From Prorocentrum cordatum (lineage: Eukaryota > Sar > Dinophyceae > Prorocentrales > Prorocentraceae): a stretch of DNA of 64,000 bases. Shown here piece by piece: positions 46,131 through 54,762 of the stretch (the first letter of the stretch is position 1; every line of letters starts with the position of its first letter). The notes beneath the pieces were generated by a model that saw nothing but the letters and a program-made list of their open reading frames with translations, had not been told where the DNA came from and did not search any database. The position numbers were made by a program, and so were the translations under genes. Location of the stretch: assembly GCA_963575745.1 (NCBI GenBank), contig CAUYUJ010018560.1, forward strand, positions 461,313 through 525,312, in the 5' to 3' direction.

Positions 46131-46456
46131 CACCACATACCACAGTGCTTCCGCCGTGGGACGCGGAGGAGGAAGCTGGCGGAGCTGCAGCAGCAGGCGG
46201 CACGGGGAAGATAAGACATAGTTTGCGTGCTCCTTTTGTCCGCGCCACCGCCTCTGTCCGCGGTCCGCCCCCCACCCCCACCCTTTCCCAACCCCTTCCT
46301 CGTCCCCCTCGGGCCCCACACCGAGACATCCTCAAGCTTCCAGACCGACCCCTGGAGAGCGCCCCCACCCGCTCCACCCCTTCGCAAACAACCAATGGAA
46401 ACAACAGGAGACCTCTGGAAACCTCAACGTCGTCGTCACCCTGGCACCCCCCCCCC
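46131..46456. other. unassigned region upstream of the retrotransposon
   Basis: Pyrimidine-rich toward 46456. No gene seen. Confidence 0.45.
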
Positions 46457-46521
46457 ATACTCCTCCCTCCTCCGTCTTTCTCCTCCTCCTCCTCCTCCTC
46501 CTTCTCCATCCCCCCCCCCAG
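46457..46521 (+). promoter_or_regulatory. polypyrimidine tract and AG directly before the spliced leader
   Basis: A CT-rich run (TCCTCCTCCTCCTCC, CCCCCCCCCC) ends in CAG at 46519-46521, and the spliced-leader copy begins at the next base. This is what a trans-splice acceptor looks like. Whether it is used at this locus is inference. It could equally be flanking (CCT)n into which the element inserted. Confidence 0.55.
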
Positions 46522-46543
46522 ACCGTAGCCATTTTGGCTCAAG
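46522..46543 (+). other. DinoSL: genomic copy of the full dinoflagellate spliced leader (22 nt)
   Basis: The 22 bases match the dinoflagellate spliced leader consensus (D-CCGTAGCC-ATTTTGGCTCAAG) at every position, with A at the variable first base. It is not an SL RNA gene: no GT donor follows. Instead a second leader fragment follows, so this is a reverse-transcribed mRNA 5' end. Confidence 0.96.
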
Positions 46544-46558
46544 CCATTTTGGCTCAAG
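46544..46558 (+). other. truncated spliced-leader relic (15 nt)
   Basis: CCATTTTGGCTCAAG follows the full leader without a gap. It is exactly what remains when a new leader is spliced onto the AG inside CCGTAG of an older genomic leader. It therefore records an earlier round of trans-splicing and reintegration. Confidence 0.96.
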
Positions 46559-46707
46559 GGGCTGGCTCGAGGCGAGCTGGCTGCAGCGGCCCCTTTCTTC
46601 CTCACAATGATCCGTCCACGACAGTGCGTGGCCCGCGCGCCCAGCCAGATGGGCCTTCTTGCACTACTCCTTTTCGGGACAGGACTACTGCTACTGAAGG
46701 AAGCGGC

Positions 46708-47871
46708 ATGGCGCGCGGCAAATACTTGGTCTGCCCGTGGCACGGCTGCAACGGCTGGGCCTGGGCCGACCGCGGGGCTTCCCACTGCACTCGCTGTGGC
46801 TCGAAGCTCGCCGCGAAGAAGATGGTTTCCAACGATGACATTCCCCCAGGAGGAGGTGGTGGAGTACGACCAGGCCGCCCACGGTCAGTCAACTTCGAAG
46901 GAGAACGAGATGCAGGGCATAAAGCAGGTGGACGGCGAGGGGGACGTTGGCGAGGTCGCTCGCGTGATCCCCAAGGTGCTGCCGCAGAAGAACCACCTGC
47001 CCGCGAAGAGACCACCACCGAGAAGTTCACGGACGGCAGCAAGCAGCAGGACTCCAGCGGGTCCGCCATCGAGCTCGCGCAGGCGCAGATGGTCTTCTGG
47101 AAGCAGTGGGAGGGCGACGCCAGCCAGGAGTATAAGGATGCGGTCGAAGGTTTCAAACGTGCTAAGCTGGTGGCACTACAAGACAAAACACCTGATCAAC
47201 AAGTCCAGAGCGTCACCGACCAGTTGGCGCAGGCGAAACGCAAGCATGGTCAGTGCAGGAACACGGTCAACCAGCTCACCCAGCAGCTGGTCACGATCGC
47301 CGACAAGCACAAGAACGCGCTCGAGGAGTACGGCCAGGCGACGGGCGAGGTGCAGAGGCTCCAGGTGCAGCTGCAGGTGGCCCAGCAGGCGGCTGCGCAG
47401 AAGGCAGTGCAGGAAGTGCCCATATCTGAGGCGATGCGCACGCTCATCGCGACCAGAATCGACAAGCCAATGGACCACATCCCCGAAGAGCTGGACAAGC
47501 ACTTGCTGGCGGTGGCGCAGGTGCTGGAGACAATCGAGACGAAGCAGAAGAGCGAGGACGCTGCGGCTAAGGCCGCGGCATCCACCAAGGCGAGCGAAGA
47601 CGCAGATGCCCACCCCCTCCCCAAGGTTGGCGAGAAGGCTGAGGATGATGATGACCTGGCGCACGTTGCCCAACCAGTCCCAGGAGACGACGACGATGAA
47701 GCGATGGAGGCTGCGCGCAAACGAGCTGCCGACGCACTCCAGATCAGCCAGGAGGGCATTGCCAAGGCGGACTTGGACAGCGAAGAGGCCAGCAAGAAGC
47801 TCAAGCTCTCGGCGACGGCTGCAGCACCCTCAGCTGGCAAAGGGAGTGGCGCTCGCTCGTCTCGCGGGTAG
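46708..47871 (+). CDS. retrotransposon ORF1 protein, zinc finger plus coiled coil
   Basis: The ATG at 46708 gives 387 residues. The start is chosen because it is the first ATG in this frame after the leader. The frame is open upstream only through leader and UTR. Residues 9-30 form a C-x4-C-x12-C-x2-C zinc motif with a Trp-rich middle (C9, C14, C27, C30; GWAWADRG), a form common in dinoflagellate LINE ORF1 proteins. Residues about 130-270 are Gln/Ala/Lys-rich coiled coil (QLAQAKRKHGQC, LQVQLQVAQQAAAQK). The C-terminus is acidic then Lys/Ser-rich. The likely role is binding the element's RNA in a ribonucleoprotein particle. A second frame is open across the same DNA (46607-48016) but is a compositional shadow until it enters the endonuclease. 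Confidence 0.8.
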   Translation: MARGKYLVCPWHGCNGWAWADRGASHCTRCGSKLAAKKMVSNDDIPPGGGGGVRPGRPRSVNFEGERDAGHKAGGRRGGRWRGRSRDPQGAAAEEPPAREETTTEKFTDGSKQQDSSGSAIELAQAQMVFWKQWEGDASQEYKDAVEGFKRAKLVALQDKTPDQQVQSVTDQLAQAKRKHGQCRNTVNQLTQQLVTIADKHKNALEEYGQATGEVQRLQVQLQVAQQAAAQKAVQEVPISEAMRTLIATRIDKPMDHIPEELDKHLLAVAQVLETIETKQKSEDAAAKAAASTKASEDADAHPLPKVGEKAEDDDDLAHVAQPVPGDDDDEAMEAARKRAADALQISQEGIAKADLDSEEASKKLKLSATAAAPSAGKGSGARSSRG

Positions 47872-48540
47872 CCTGAGGATCACCACGAACAATGGCAGTT
47901 GTTGGCAGCAGGTGAAGACGTACATTCGTTCAGCTGCCTCTGGGGGCGAGAGTGTGATATGTGCGCAGGAGACCAAGCTATGCACAGAGCAGTCCATCGT
48001 TTATGCTAGTCAATGATGTGAACGGCATGGATGGGAAGCCATATTTGAGACAGGCTCATTCAGCTCTACGGGGACCCCGACTTCTGGAGTTTGCGTTTTG
48101 TTCAGGAGTGGACGGGACCTTCTGGGATTCAGGATATGAAAGTGCCCAGGGAAGCTCAGGACATGGTTCCTCAGGGACGCCTGGTCGGTGCAAGGGTAGA
48201 GCTGCCTGGGCTTGGTGTCATAGGAATTCTTTCCGTGTACATGCAGGCCAGCACAGGCCTGAACGAGACCAGTATGAACCTCTTGGCGGCCACCGCCATA
48301 CTTCAGCATGAATACCAGATTCCAATCTTGTAGCTGGGGGCTACAACGTGAGTCCTAGCAAGCTGCAGAAGAATGACCTCATACAGCGCGCAGACATGCA
48401 GATCATATATCCCCCCTCCCCGACATGCAGAGCCAAGACTTCACAATCATGTTTGGATTACTTTGTTCACAGTAGGTGTCTCCAGCATGTGCTCAACTCA
48501 CCTCAGGTTCATGTGTCCTATCCCCTGTCACCACATCGTC
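47865..48540 (+). pseudogene. LINE apurinic-type endonuclease domain, frameshifted
   Basis: This enzyme would nick the target DNA to prime reverse transcription. It is split over three frames. Frame 2 (about 47868-48016) has NNGSCWQQVKTYI and CAQETKL, the Asn- and Glu-containing motifs that start the exonuclease-endonuclease-phosphatase fold. Frame 1 (about 48061-48332) has GRLVGARVELPGLGVIGILS then VYMQ, the central strands. Frame 3 (about 48327-48540) has VAGGYNVSPSKL and SPHRPVSV, corresponding to the family's GDFN and SDH motifs. Besides the frame changes, two catalytic positions look altered: GGYN for GDFN, and SPH for SDH. I expect no active product from this copy. The SPH form may be normal in this lineage. 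Confidence 0.8.
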
Positions 48541-48937
48541 CTGTCAGTGTTCAGCCCGAGACTGGCGAGGATTTCACAGTCCTTGTCTTGTGCAAGCCGC
48601 AGCGGCTGCCTACCAAGCCTGTCTTTGGCCCCAGATTGCCAGAGCGCGACTGGATTGCCACAGAAGCTGCCCTAGACGCTGCCGAAGCCATCCTCAACAG
48701 GAGCTTTGATAGACCGATCCAGGGGGGGAAACAACGGGTGCTCGACGAAGTTTATCACTACCTGGCCAGGGATTTGGAAGTTACGATCGCGGGTTTGACG
48801 GACACCGTTTTGAAACGCAGTTCTAGACCTCGAGCGCGCCTCTTAGGGTCACATGGGTCCAAGCGAAACAGTTTCCGAAGACACATCGGGCGGCGTGAAA
48901 TTCCCAGGCAGGCCCGCCCCGATGGCTTCGGAATGTC

Positions 48938-51490
48938 GTGCAGCAGTTCTACTTCACCCTCGCGAAGCTAGATGCTAGCGCCCTGACCGATCTTTTTGCG
49001 TGCCTAGAGGACCCCCCGAACGAGTTTTGCGAGATAGAGACGCTCCGCGAGTGCTTAGAGACTACCCACCAGACCCTCAATTTCCTTGTCCTGGACGTGG
49101 AAGCCAAGGTCCTGGAGATTTCCCATGTGAGGCAAGTGTTGGACGATGTGTTGGAGGCCATCAATAAGAGCCTCGATGTCGAGATAGACCTGGAAAAACG
49201 TTCCGCCAATAAAGCCTGGCGCGAGTGGGTGCATATTGGGACGCAAGGAAACGGAGGGTGGGCTCACCGATGGACTAAGATGCTTGGCGCGTGGAACCCC
49301 AACGAGGTCCCCTGGAAAGGCACTTGGACTGGTAGACCCTCGCGCGACTTGGAACGCGAGGCCGATCGACTTGGAGAGCTTTGGGACACGACCTACCACA
49401 GGCCCCGCTATCATGTCCCCGCTGGCCCTCATGAGCCCTCTCTACCACCCATCAAGCCCCAGCACCTCATAGACGCCGCTAAACGCTTTTCACATACGAC
49501 AGCTTCGACATGGGATGGGTTCCACCCGAAGCATTTTCAGAGTCTGAATTTGGAGCAGGCTGCGCTGGTCTGCCGATATTTGCACCTGGTCGAGAAGATA
49601 GGTGCGATGCCCACCCAGCTGCAGGCAGTTGTCTCGGTTTTGATCCCCAAGACCAAAGCGAAGCCAGAGGCCAAGACTATGGCCCAGTTCCGAGGAATAG
49701 GGATGATGCCTGGGCTTTACCGAATATGGTACAAGGCCCGACAAATGGAAGCGAGACAATGGGAGGCTAAGCACCGCCGACCTTTCTTGGCCCACCAGGC
49801 GGGCAAGAACATCACCGAAATAGTCTTTCGCCAGAGCCTCAAGGCTGAGAATGGAGTGGCCTGCCAAGACCCACTCCATTCAGGCGCGGTGCTGTGGGAC
49901 CTCAGCAACTACTACGAGCACATCAGCCACCAGAAGCTGATAGAGAGGGCCCCCGCTACCGGCTTTAGCAGCGTCTTGCTGAAGGTCAGTTTAAACCAGT
50001 ACAGTAGCACGAGACTGGCGGCCACCAGAGACTTGGTCCAGCTGGTGGACCACCCCACACGCGGCATCGCAGCTGGATGTGGTTGGGCCACGTTTTTGGT
50101 ACAAGTTTACAGTTTGAGTCCCCTGGGCGCCTGGACCGAAGCAAACTCCAAGGGCACGGGCCTCCAGATGTTCATTGACGATTTATTCCTGGGGCAGCAA
50201 CGCCGAGATCCCCAGGCCCTAGTACGACAATTGCAACACTCTGCGGCTAGGCTAGCCGTGCTGGTTACGGAAGAGCTCGAGTGCAAGTTGGCGCTACACA
50301 AAGCTCAGGTTATTGCTTCTACCGCCAGACTGCGAAGACAAATTAGGAAGGCCCTCGGGAAGTATGCGGGGCCCCAGGATGCCCGCAGTGCCACCTATCT
50401 TGGGATCGACAGTGCTGCGGGGGCCTCGAGGCTCCAAGTACGACGACGTGTAGCTAAAGCGACCCTGTACAAGCGCTCTGCTAAACATAAACGACGGCGA
50501 CGCCGAATACGAGCGGTCAAGATAGCTGGAGGCGACACCAGAAAGCTTTGGGAGACGGGGCTCCAGCAAGCCCTTACGTATGGCACTGAGGCTGTCGGCA
50601 TGGATCCCCAGGAGCTCCAGAATCTCCAGACGGAATATTTGAAAGTAGCGGGGCCCCGATGCGCGACGAGAAGTAGACCCTTAAGCCTGGCGGTACTAGG
50701 AGACCCTACGTGGCGAGCAGGGCTAGGCCCTGCCCTGACTTGGTCGACCATGATCTGGCGAGCTGCGACGAGACCCAGCCACCCTCGAGAACTACTTGAG
50801 CTGAAAAGCCTAGCCGAGCCAAAGTTTCTGAACCAGCCTAGGAAGTGGGCGGCCGAGCGAGGCCCCTTTGGGGCCGCCTGTCTGTCCCCCCGACGGATAG
50901 GCTGGAGTTTTGTTTCTGTTTTGGAGGTGCAGGATGCGAATGGGTATCGGTGCCCACTCACAACATGCACTCCCAGAATGATTGCCCAGAAAATGCAAGA
51001 GGCCTGGGAGCAGGCCATCCACAGGAAAGCCGCCAAGAAACTCGGTTACCCCCAGGAGACCCTTGACGTCAGCATCGCCCGAAAAATGTTGGCTGGGAAG
51101 ACGCTGCCAAAGAAAGCCAGATCCACCCTTCTTAGTTTTCTCACCCAGAGTACCTGGACCAACGCGCGCTTGCAGCGAGCTGGGTACGACTCTGACGACA
51201 AGTGCCAGCGCGGGCACCCGTGCGATGACTTGCGCCACCGCCTTTTACATTGCTCGCTCAGCGCCCAATTACGTGATTCGTTCACAGCAGACGAACTTGA
51301 CACGATTTCGAAGGTGACGGATCAGGCTGTAGCGTATGGTTTCCAGTTCCAACCTGAATTCGAAACAAGGGCTCCTGACGGGTTTGGCTATGAATATGCC
51401 AGGTTTTGGTGTCGAGACTCGCGAGGCCCTTGCTGGGGAGATTTTTACCGATGGATCCTGTCTCCAACCTGGAGGGTACAAAAATTGTAA
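48938..51490 (+). CDS. LINE reverse transcriptase, catalytic core intact
   Basis: An 850-codon frame. The first codon at 48938 is GTG and no ATG precedes it in frame. The natural protein must begin upstream and reach this frame through a shift near 48925-48935, where frame 3 sequence (RQARPDGFG) continues in sense as NVVQQFYFTLAK. RT landmarks by residue: LIPK 235-238, FRGIGMM 251-257, motif A WDLSNYYEHI with Asp321, motif B-like GIAAGC 376-381, motif C FIDD 412-415 with Asp414/Asp415. These three Asp residues bind the catalytic metals. FIDD replaces the usual YADD/FADD. A basic thumb-like region follows (KRSAKHKRRRRRIRAVKI), then a long C-terminal region with a DKCxxxxPCDDLxHRLLHC Cys/His motif. 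The last about 30 codons (after about 51400) are out of frame relative to RNase H. Confidence 0.93.
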   Translation: MQQFYFTLAKLDASALTDLFACLEDPPNEFCEIETLRECLETTHQTLNFLVLDVEAKVLEISHVRQVLDDVLEAINKSLDVEIDLEKRSANKAWREWVHIGTQGNGGWAHRWTKMLGAWNPNEVPWKGTWTGRPSRDLEREADRLGELWDTTYHRPRYHVPAGPHEPSLPPIKPQHLIDAAKRFSHTTASTWDGFHPKHFQSLNLEQAALVCRYLHLVEKIGAMPTQLQAVVSVLIPKTKAKPEAKTMAQFRGIGMMPGLYRIWYKARQMEARQWEAKHRRPFLAHQAGKNITEIVFRQSLKAENGVACQDPLHSGAVLWDLSNYYEHISHQKLIERAPATGFSSVLLKVSLNQYSSTRLAATRDLVQLVDHPTRGIAAGCGWATFLVQVYSLSPLGAWTEANSKGTGLQMFIDDLFLGQQRRDPQALVRQLQHSAARLAVLVTEELECKLALHKAQVIASTARLRRQIRKALGKYAGPQDARSATYLGIDSAAGASRLQVRRRVAKATLYKRSAKHKRRRRRIRAVKIAGGDTRKLWETGLQQALTYGTEAVGMDPQELQNLQTEYLKVAGPRCATRSRPLSLAVLGDPTWRAGLGPALTWSTMIWRAATRPSHPRELLELKSLAEPKFLNQPRKWAAERGPFGAACLSPRRIGWSFVSVLEVQDANGYRCPLTTCTPRMIAQKMQEAWEQAIHRKAAKKLGYPQETLDVSIARKMLAGKTLPKKARSTLLSFLTQSTWTNARLQRAGYDSDDKCQRGHPCDDLRHRLLHCSLSAQLRDSFTADELDTISKVTDQAVAYGFQFQPEFETRAPDGFGYEYARFWCRDSRGPCWGDFYRWILSPTWRVQKL

Positions 51491-52667
51491 CGTAGCTGGG
51501 TGGTCAGTGGTGGCCATCGATGGCCACGGTGACGTGTTTGCATACCTCATCGGGCGTGTGGGTAAATACCCCCCCTCCTCCCCTGCTGCTGAGCACTGTG
51601 CTGTGCTTGCTGCTGGTCTCAATGCTCACCCACACGCCCAAATGTTTGTAGATTACCCAGGAGCCATAGACGTGCACCGAAAGGAAAGTTTCTCGCGGTC
51701 CGATTTTTACGGGGCCTCCAAGGTCCTCGGTGGCGATTGCGCTACCCCCTTGGGCCCAAGGCTAAACAATATTAAAGCGCACGTCAATATTAAGGAGCTC
51801 CCAGAGTATAGTCCTGAGTGGCGACGAGCCAAAGGCAACGATGCAGCTGACAGATATGCGAAGATCGCCGCTGCTAGAGTCTCCCAACCGAGTCAGCTTG
51901 AGACCGAGTTGCAGGAAGGCCAGAGCGAGCTACTGGTCAAGTTTCTGACTTACGTTTCAGAAGCCTTGCAGTTATGGCCACCTGTAGCCCCCAAGGTTGG
52001 TGCCAAAGCTTTTGACAAACCGATGCAGAGTTTGAACCCGCCCACTGGGGCCGCGTCGGCTGGCCTCTCGTGGGGCCTGGTACCTCCCCCTCCTCCGCCG
52101 AGGTCCCCTCTCGCCTCCGATATTCAGCGTCGAAAGCATCAGTGGCACCCCTGGGGGAAGAGTTTCATATGTGCCGCCTGCCGCCACAGTTGCGCTCCTA
52201 GTGCGGTTAAGGCCAGGCGTGACCAAGAGGACTGCCCTGGCTACTGCGAGTTTCACAGTAGCCTTGCGAGCAATCCGCGAGGCCACAATCTCTATTTCTT
52301 TGGCTACGAAGACGAATGCAGTCCCTTGAGCCTGATGTTGTGCTGGACCTGTGGAGCCTTCACCGAGAGCACCAGCGGCCTAGCAGACGAATGTCCTGGA
52401 GAGCCCCCTAATCACGGTAGACGTCTGCAAAAGCAGAGAGCCGCGGAGGGTAGACATCCCAAGGGGGCCGCGAATTCACCAATTGTTTTGCGTTCACCGA
52501 TCCCTCTGGCCCAGCTGGTGAAAGAACTGGCTGGGACGAACCCCACCGACCTCGAGATTGGTAATCCGAGTGGGGGAAGTGCCGCCTGGGACGTTTCACG
52601 AGACGAGAGCCATCCGCCTGTCTCCGAGGTCGCCCTCGCTTGCCAGGAAAGCCCCCCAGAGGGGTAG
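51336..52667 (+). CDS. LINE RNase H domain plus C-terminal Cys-rich domain
   Basis: The 443-codon frame is one base ahead of the RT frame. The two overlap at 51336-51490, and sense switches from RT to RNase H around 51380-51440, so a +1 shift (mutation or ribosomal) is needed for a fusion. The ATG at 51336 is the first in the frame but lies within RT-coding DNA and is unlikely to be a real start. RNase H carboxylates are all present: Asp39 (IFTDGSC), Glu86 (AAEHCAV), Asp106 (FVDYPG), Asp169 (GNDAADRYAK). The enzyme removes template RNA during DNA synthesis. Residues about 268-350 hold Cys pairs (FICAACRHSC, CPGYCEFH, LCWTCGAF, DECPG) suggesting a zinc-binding tail. The frame stops at 52667. 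Confidence 0.88.
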   Translation: MVSSSNLNSKQGLLTGLAMNMPGFGVETREALAGEIFTDGSCLQPGGYKNCNVAGWSVVAIDGHGDVFAYLIGRVGKYPPSSPAAEHCAVLAAGLNAHPHAQMFVDYPGAIDVHRKESFSRSDFYGASKVLGGDCATPLGPRLNNIKAHVNIKELPEYSPEWRRAKGNDAADRYAKIAAARVSQPSQLETELQEGQSELLVKFLTYVSEALQLWPPVAPKVGAKAFDKPMQSLNPPTGAASAGLSWGLVPPPPPPRSPLASDIQRRKHQWHPWGKSFICAACRHSCAPSAVKARRDQEDCPGYCEFHSSLASNPRGHNLYFFGYEDECSPLSLMLCWTCGAFTESTSGLADECPGEPPNHGRRLQKQRAAEGRHPKGAANSPIVLRSPIPLAQLVKELAGTNPTDLEIGNPSGGSAAWDVSRDESHPPVSEVALACQESPPEG

Positions 52668-53710
52668 CGGATTGCGGCCCTGGACGGCCACCCCCCTCTT
52701 CAGTCTGAGCGCTGGCCCCCCTCCCCCCAGGCGAGGGCGGGAGTTGGGGCCCGCACGGAAGAGAGCGGAGCCAAGAAACGATGCATGCCAAAAGATCGGG
52801 GACATGATTGACGTATCTCCTTTCCTTCTTGGTTGAAGATTCCGCCTCCTCTTTTGTAAGTCCCCCGTCCCCTATCTCCCTCCGCCTCTTTCTTTTCCCC
52901 ACCTCCAATCTGTCCTCATCATCATCCTTCCCTCCTCGAACTCCTTTTCTCTCCTCCTCCTCCTGCTCCTCCTGCTCCTCCTCCTCCTCCTCCTCCTCCT
53001 CCTCCTCCTCCTCCTCCTCCTCCTCCTCCTCCTCCCTCCTCTTGCTCCTGATCATCCTGCCACCTCATCCTCTCCTTCCCCTCTCCTGCTCCTCTTTCTC
53101 CTCCTCATTGTTGACACTTCTCTTCTCCCTCATTATGATCCTGCACCCGCTTCTCCTCCTCCTCCTCCTCCTCCTCCTCCTCCTCCTCCTCCCCTTCCTC
53201 CTGCACCTCCTCCTCGTCCCTTCCTCATACTCCTCCTCCTCCCCCTCCTGAACCTTCTCAGTTCCCTTCCTCTTTCATCGTCTCCTTCTCCTCGTCCTCT
53301 TGCTCCGAAGAGACTCCGAGAGGCATCCAAGAAGCCTATGGCCTTTCTGTTCATGCTCCGCCTCCTCCTCCTCCTCCTCCTCTTCCTGCTCGTGCTCCTC
53401 TCTCCGCCTTCCCTCGTCCGCCGCGCGTGCCTTGCATTTCGGAGGGAAGCGGCGACACCAGGAGGCCGTGCACCGTTTCGAAGCGCACGTCGTGCCTTGA
53501 GAGGGGCGCCCCGAGGCTTGCCGGACGGGTCATCATTATTCTCCTCGTCTCGCTCCTGGCGCTTCGCTTCATTCATTCTGCTCGTCTCAGTTTTCCCATC
53601 GTCATTCCTCCTTCTTCTCCTCGTTACTTCCATCTTCTTTCTCCTGTATAAGTGTCTTCCTCATGTGTGTCCTCCTCCTCGTCAACCTCCTCCTTCTCGC
53701 CCTCCCCCCT
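52668..53710. other. 3' flank of the retrotransposon: CCT microsatellite and unassigned DNA
   Basis: CCT/CTC tracts at about 52940-53035, 53145-53200 and 53360-53400. Frames here are poly-Ser/Leu or their mirror. I could not locate the retrotransposon's 3' end or a poly-A tail. Confidence 0.6.
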
Positions 53711-54746: not shown

Positions 54747-54762
54747 CTTGAGCCAAACTGGC
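54747..54762 (-). other. degenerate spliced-leader relic
   Basis: On the minus strand GCCAGTTTGGCTCAAG matches the last 16 bases of the dinoflagellate spliced leader with one mismatch. A pyrimidine-rich run (TCCTTCCCCTCCCCCTTCCT) lies just upstream. It sits at the correct end of an ORF1-like reading frame. By my own count, a 15/16 match is expected about 0.0015 times by chance in 64 kb on both strands, ignoring composition. Confidence 0.6.

Follow-up and report, generated by a model that had tools for sequence, protein, structure and literature searches.

This locus raises the question of how a LINE comes to begin with two copies of the spliced leader, the short sequence that a dinoflagellate cell joins onto its mRNAs, and of what the number of leaders says about the history of such an element. 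The window, that is, the whole stretch of DNA that was analysed, is 64,000 nucleotides long (461313-525312 of contig C17711), and the searches covered the same 4.13-Gb assembly.

A broken LINE behind a tandem leader

The full dinoflagellate leader (DinoSL), ACCGTAGCCATTTTGGCTCAAG, is matched exactly over 22 nt at 46522-46543, and a 15-nt relic of it, CCATTTTGGCTCAAG, abuts it at 46544-46558 with a gap of 0 nt. Both had been described in an earlier note on this DNA and were confirmed here; a comparable leader match was obtained in 0/100 shuffles of the window. The features of the locus are as follows.

46444..46521, forward strand: target tract, rich in pyrimidines, before the element; its last letters are CCCCCCCCCCAG; the 60 nt before the leader are 92% pyrimidine
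46507..46521, forward strand: probable upstream copy of the target-site duplication, found by eye
46522..52715, forward strand: whole LINE copy, ending GCGCTGG without poly(A); this 3′ end is common to the relatives
46522..46543, forward strand: full 22-nt DinoSL, read as the 5′ end of the inserted cDNA (sequence match)
46544..46558, forward strand: 15-nt leader relic, truncated after CCGTAG and joined to GGGCTGG; the relatives have 44 nt extra here, ending AG
46708..47871, forward strand: ORF1-like frame, starting at the ATG at 46708 (ORF list)
47872..48898, forward strand: endonuclease region, frame-broken and weak
48899..51490, forward strand: reverse transcriptase (RT) frame (ORF list, RVT_1 match)
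51333..52667, forward strand: 3′ frame in which motifs resembling RNase H are visible by eye (ORF list; no Pfam support)
52716..52730, forward strand: probable downstream copy of the target-site duplication, found by eye

The earlier note had placed ORF1, endonuclease, RT and RNase H behind the leaders in that order, and this held in part. The ORF1-like and RT frames were borne out; Pfam found no known domain in the former, and the latter matched RVT_1 at E 7.4e-5, below the Pfam curated cut-off that its relatives P0002 and P0004 pass. The endonuclease is weak (PF03372, E 0.097 by Pfam; tblastn to P0004, E 6e-11) and broken in frame, and RNase H was recognised by eye only, Pfam giving no match for it in the element. 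A PDB sequence search with the window RT returned no match, and one with the 3′ frame returned a single weak match that looked unrelated. The window LINE is a degenerate, broken copy.

Leaders at the 5′ ends of the relatives

A query made of the 300 bases just past the leaders found at least 40 places (40 of 64 candidates were scored). Thirty loci were cut from these, one of which (L045) was dropped as it was cut off upstream, and in all 29 remaining readable copies of this first set the element starts with the leader (29/29), across subfamilies that are only about 75-80% alike. Ten further places were examined as short pieces, with a pattern allowing up to 5 errors, and the leader was found in 8/10; that of L074 is degenerate, as judged by eye, and L079 had no leader in the short piece examined. 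L075 and L076 agree in the sequence surrounding the leader and probably represent a single locus that was duplicated. Among the copies examined, none was seen with element sequence beyond the leader.

According to the earlier note, related copies with common sequence upstream would mean that the leader pair was ordinary element or flank sequence. When the upstream flanks were compared by blastn (plus strand, low-complexity filter, E<=1e-5), the flank of the window copy matched 0 of the other 28, and the matches that were found join other copies to one another.

Insertion ends and target-site duplications

Of 13 3′ ends fetched, 10 were readable; two had no match, reading N at the end shown, and one end was missed. 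In 10/10 readable cases the element ends in GCGCTGG and passes into TCC-rich sequence, so that this family lacks the poly(A) tail which is common, not universal, in LINEs. The 3′ end shows no further leader sequence. Leader and element together are flanked directly by target-site duplications of 13-17 bp, which are clear where the tract is interrupted, and clearest in five copies.

L047, the copy with two leaders: duplication TCCCTCTCCTCGTCG
L043: duplication TCCTCCCCCTCCTGCT
L035: duplication TCCTCCGCCTCCGCCTC
L037: duplication TCCCCCTCCTCCTCCTC
L033: duplication CCTCCTCGTCCTC

The script that found duplications tolerated a shift of up to 5 nt on the upstream side and of a few nt at the 3′ end. 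In a control with the 3′ start fixed, matches of at least 11 nt were obtained for 8/11 own flank pairs vs 16/110 mismatched pairs, the long matches among the latter probably coming from uninterrupted TCC runs; under this fixed start the L033 duplication drops to 5 nt. A convincing duplication was not found in L036. That of the window copy itself is imperfect: 46507-46521 and 52716-52730 agree by eye at 12/15 positions, the last 8 (CCCCCCAG) exactly, and the script gives only 6 nt. As the duplications lie directly outside leader and element, the leader is the end of the inserted cDNA, and the presence of both leaders of L047 inside its duplications indicates that the tandem pair entered as a single cDNA.

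Preference for TCC tracts

In the 29 copies the 60 nt upstream of the leader have a median of 97% pyrimidine (lowest 73%), against a background, taken from the far flanks of the loci fetched up to then, in which 17/781 60-mers reach at least 80%; the tract has the TCC orientation in all 29. A 3′ query found at least 40 places (40 of 66 candidates were scored), and 25 of the 40 listed have a 5′ end, found by the 5′ query, on their own contig within about 5-13 kb. The expected 5′ place was examined for 8 of the remaining 15, and 7 were without element sequence there and one was mostly gap. Four were examined further: three show the truncation point, pyrimidine-rich in each case (0.95, 0.88 and 0.85 over 60 nt), with tracts and not leaders at the junction (3/3), and in the fourth candidate the element continues past the piece examined. 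Because 5′-truncated copies are also in tracts, the tract is a target preference independent of the leader. Insertion into one simple repeat irrespective of the 5′ end, as in microsatellite-selective LINEs, is thus seen in 29 copies and in 3/3 truncated ones, and the duplications of variable length and the 5′-truncated copies are those of a LINE.

At L038 we noticed, by eye, another insertion whose inverted leader stands about 70 nt upstream, on the far side of the TCC tract and facing away, an arrangement of two insertions in opposite orientations in one tract.

Junctions at alternative AGs

In close relatives the leader is followed by 44 nt ending CTGCCGAG and then by GGGCTGG. Both the window copy and L036 show the leader fused straight to GGGCTGG, after the first AG past the leader (position 44). 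L047 has two leaders joined after CTATAG (AG24) and L083 two leaders joined after GTGAAG (AG16); L082 may be a further case of this kind. Leaders joined to internal positions right after an AG are the marks that trans-splicing at alternative AGs would be expected to leave, and such splicing has been described for dinoflagellate actin (PMC2488372).

A tree of the 29 copies was built from 1.7 kb of downstream 5′ sequence. It places the window with L033/L037 and L036 with L035, both weakly supported (81/37 and 85/0); a tree that keeps the window and L036 in a single clade is rejected (p-AU 0.017; 0.0023 when L047 is added). The AG44 junction of the window has therefore probably arisen twice. The earlier note had proposed that trans-splicing of the LINE RNA was followed by copying to its 5′ end and by insertion; the leader that ends the cDNA, the duplications beyond it and the junctions at AGs all support this. 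It had further proposed at least two such rounds in series, and for the window lineage we infer at least two successive leader additions, one at the internal AG before GGGCTGG and then a second at the CCGTAG of the first leader.

Probable replacement of most leaders

Whatever their depth in the tree, 27/29 copies have a single leader, so a new leader would usually have to replace the old one, most simply, it would seem, by splicing at the AG with which CTCAAG, the last part of the old leader, ends. Over 28 copies (L042, with a branch of 0.52, is excluded from these divergence figures) the leader differs from DinoSL by 0.029 per site, compared with a mean tip branch of 0.034 and a midpoint-root depth of 0.176; for the 7 deepest copies the values are 0.048, 0.066 and 0.477. 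The leaders are thus roughly as young as the tip branches, and, being mostly single, they suggest that most rounds leave the number unchanged. The substitutions in the leader, counted in 27 copies (L051 and L057 were dropped for deletions), fall on tips in 13/13 cases (13 changes, 13 steps, on separate tips), where about 18 would be expected on inner branches. Downstream, 69/69 overlapping windows of 21 sites have at least 3 sites at which copies share a minor letter (median 12), compared with 1 in the leader. Selection on inner branches could mimic this pattern. Taking the tip-only changes and the AG junctions together, we prefer renewal as the probable explanation.

The first base of the leader, which directly precedes CCGTAG, does not fit so simply. 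It is C in 26/29 copies of this family, T in 2 and A in the window, compared with T in 53/64 other sites (7/10 in purine tracts). One SL RNA source predicts one base, so the split between C and T counts against renewal from a single SL RNA; either the RT of this LINE family makes errors at the cap-proximal base, or the leader is in part inherited.

Leaders elsewhere in the genome

The assembly contains 14,218 exact matches to the 21-nt leader (control, 0), and a tandem 30-nt pair with up to 3 mismatches gave 5,177 matches, longer arrays being counted repeatedly, with 0 for a backwards-pattern control. In a sample of 45 consecutive exact-leader sites, 22 lie in pyrimidine tracts, 9 in purine tracts and 14 in neither, a few of the last within simple repeats of another kind; a relic (12 of 15 matches) stands behind the leader in 6/45 and is absent from 39/45, and 25/45 fall into multi-member sequence clusters (single linkage). 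A set of 28 distinct tandem loci divides into 11 in pyrimidine tracts, 3 in purine tracts and 14 elsewhere. The other orientation of the tract, (GGA)n, also hosts leader-bearing insertions (9/45: L093, L098, L101, L102, L104, L106, L120, L122 and L005).

Seven tandem loci were followed downstream by Pfam and tblastn (the frames of L089 were outside the Pfam run). L086 (contig C390, two leader cores) and L088 (contig C291, three leader cores) have long open frames with Pfam endonuclease and RT (RVT_1 9.6e-20 and 6.7e-34, respectively), L090 has an RT match by tblastn (E 8e-15), and nothing was found at the remaining four. The window RT gave no tblastn match to L086 or L088 at E 1e-3, and these are therefore taken to be other LINE families; the 5′ stretch of the L086 element (L030) joins the cluster of the window by single linkage.

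Two further observations concern leader-like sequence near pyrimidine tracts. A frequent type of repeat in TCC tracts (L091, L096, L113, L115, L119, L127, L008, L010 and L015) has the leader, mostly an immediate ATG, and then GGATACC(G/T)CTAGTCCG-like sequence. In the window itself, positions 54747-54761 on the reverse strand read CCAGTTTGGCTCAAG, which departs from the relic core by 1 mismatch and comes after a stretch rich in pyrimidines that contains ACCGT; this is possibly the decayed leader of a second inserted cDNA.

A proposed cycle and its alternatives

We consider it likely that this is a LINE which prefers (TCC)n tracts and whose RNA receives the host spliced leader before reverse transcription. 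In the proposed cycle a copy inside a tract would be transcribed, the host would trans-splice a new leader onto an AG near its 5′ end, the RT of the LINE would reverse-transcribe this RNA, leader included, and the resulting cDNA would go into another tract, making the 13-17 bp duplication. The new leader would usually replace the old one, the AG of the final CTCAAG being the presumed acceptor and this outcome the presumed common one; sometimes it would be added in front, at CCGTAG, to give a tandem as in the window, and sometimes a downstream AG would be chosen, with loss of 5′ sequence. The TCC tract and the AG inside the leader would together provide the next acceptor, and the element would need no promoter of its own. 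A wider version, in which promoterless LINEs of several families live on host read-through, with (TCC)n and the leader AG rebuilding the acceptor at each site and host capping renewing the 5′ end in each generation, is offered tentatively, as something possible rather than probable.

The leader count had been suggested in the earlier note to work as a generation counter, every round adding one leader at CCGTAG so that the number of relics equals that of generations. Tandems with CCGTAG junctions in the window, L047 and L083, the 5,177 matches genome-wide and decayed second relics, seen by eye in some other families, are what such accumulation would produce, but it is hard to reconcile with a single leader in 27/29 copies at all tree depths and with 39/45 consecutive exact-leader sites that have no relic; the counter fails, and we regard serial accumulation as very improbable. 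Somewhat more weight, if still little, is due to inheritance of the leader as DNA, in which transcription would start at the genomic leader, selection would keep it, and trans-splicing of the LINE would be occasional. A promoter motif within the leader was proposed (PMC6050394), the predominance of C at base 1 in this family against T elsewhere favours inheritance, and the tip-only substitutions are also compatible with selection on inner branches; yet the AG junctions of the window, L036, L047 and L083 require trans-splicing in at least those lineages, and the contrast between the 69/69 downstream windows and the leader in shared minor letters is against it.

Copies that abut leader sequence, in a genome where leaders are abundant, could also arise if the LINE inserted into pre-existing leaders. 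This was ruled out as the duplicated target is the TCC tract outside the leader; moreover, no leader is repeated at the 3′ end, and the three truncated copies have tracts, not leaders, at their junctions, which leaves leader targeting with hardly any probability. Chance or ordinary flank sequence is just as negligible an explanation, given the shuffles, the backwards-pattern control (0 vs 5,177) and an upstream flank in the window unlike those of the other 28 copies. Addition of a host leader to the RNA of a tract-preferring LINE thus remains the reading that we favour.

Relation to known systems

Slamovits and Keeling (2008) reportedly described leader-tagged retrogenes in dinoflagellates as recycled cDNAs. 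In those retrogenes, as in this LINE, the inserted cDNA starts with a leader, and both show a relic truncated after CCGTAG and tandem relics; in contrast to the retrogenes, the carrier here is a LINE that encodes RT, the leaders are mostly replaced and not stacked, and TCC tracts are preferred. The trypanosomatid LINEs (SLACS/CZAR/CRE, L1Tc) likewise live in hosts with spliced-leader trans-splicing, but SLACS, CZAR and CRE insert into SL RNA genes, whereas here the leader is carried as the cDNA end and the duplicated target is the TCC tract. L1Tc is described as having unspliced transcripts from its own Pr77 promoter (PMC8190864). Target-selective LINEs exist, some with microsatellite targets (PMC4640811); like the present family, these insert again and again into a single type of simple repeat and make duplications, here with no poly(A), and what sets the present family apart is the host leader that forms its 5′ end. 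For dinoflagellate genes, leader-tagged cDNAs and tandem relics have been described (PMC3229502, PMC6050394, PMC12014239), and PMC6050394 calls the element responsible unknown and LTR elements likelier. A literature search for LINEs that themselves bear the leader gave no such report among the matches listed. As read from the sequence, this is a (TCC)n-selective LINE with the host spliced leader as its 5′ end. It would offer an answer to how a LINE keeps a complete 5′ end without a promoter of its own, and it makes LINEs candidate carriers of leader-tagged cDNA in dinoflagellates. Many of the leader relics in the genome may be signs of mobile elements (31/45 sites are in tracts and 25/45 are clustered), and retrogene counts and rounds of retroposition read from leader number may need revising.

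For viral sequences with relic leaders nearby, LINE-mediated integration has been suggested (PMC10235124). A scan of viral contigs for tandem leaders gave 0. An AT-rich contig classed as viral (L143, IMGVR_UViG_3300045993_001077) has two exact DinoSLs on the reverse strand, at 2746-2766 and 2893-2913, one of them lying immediately before a 254-aa frame, with a glycosyltransferase gene alongside; a virus may have captured host cDNA here, or the contig may be mis-binned.
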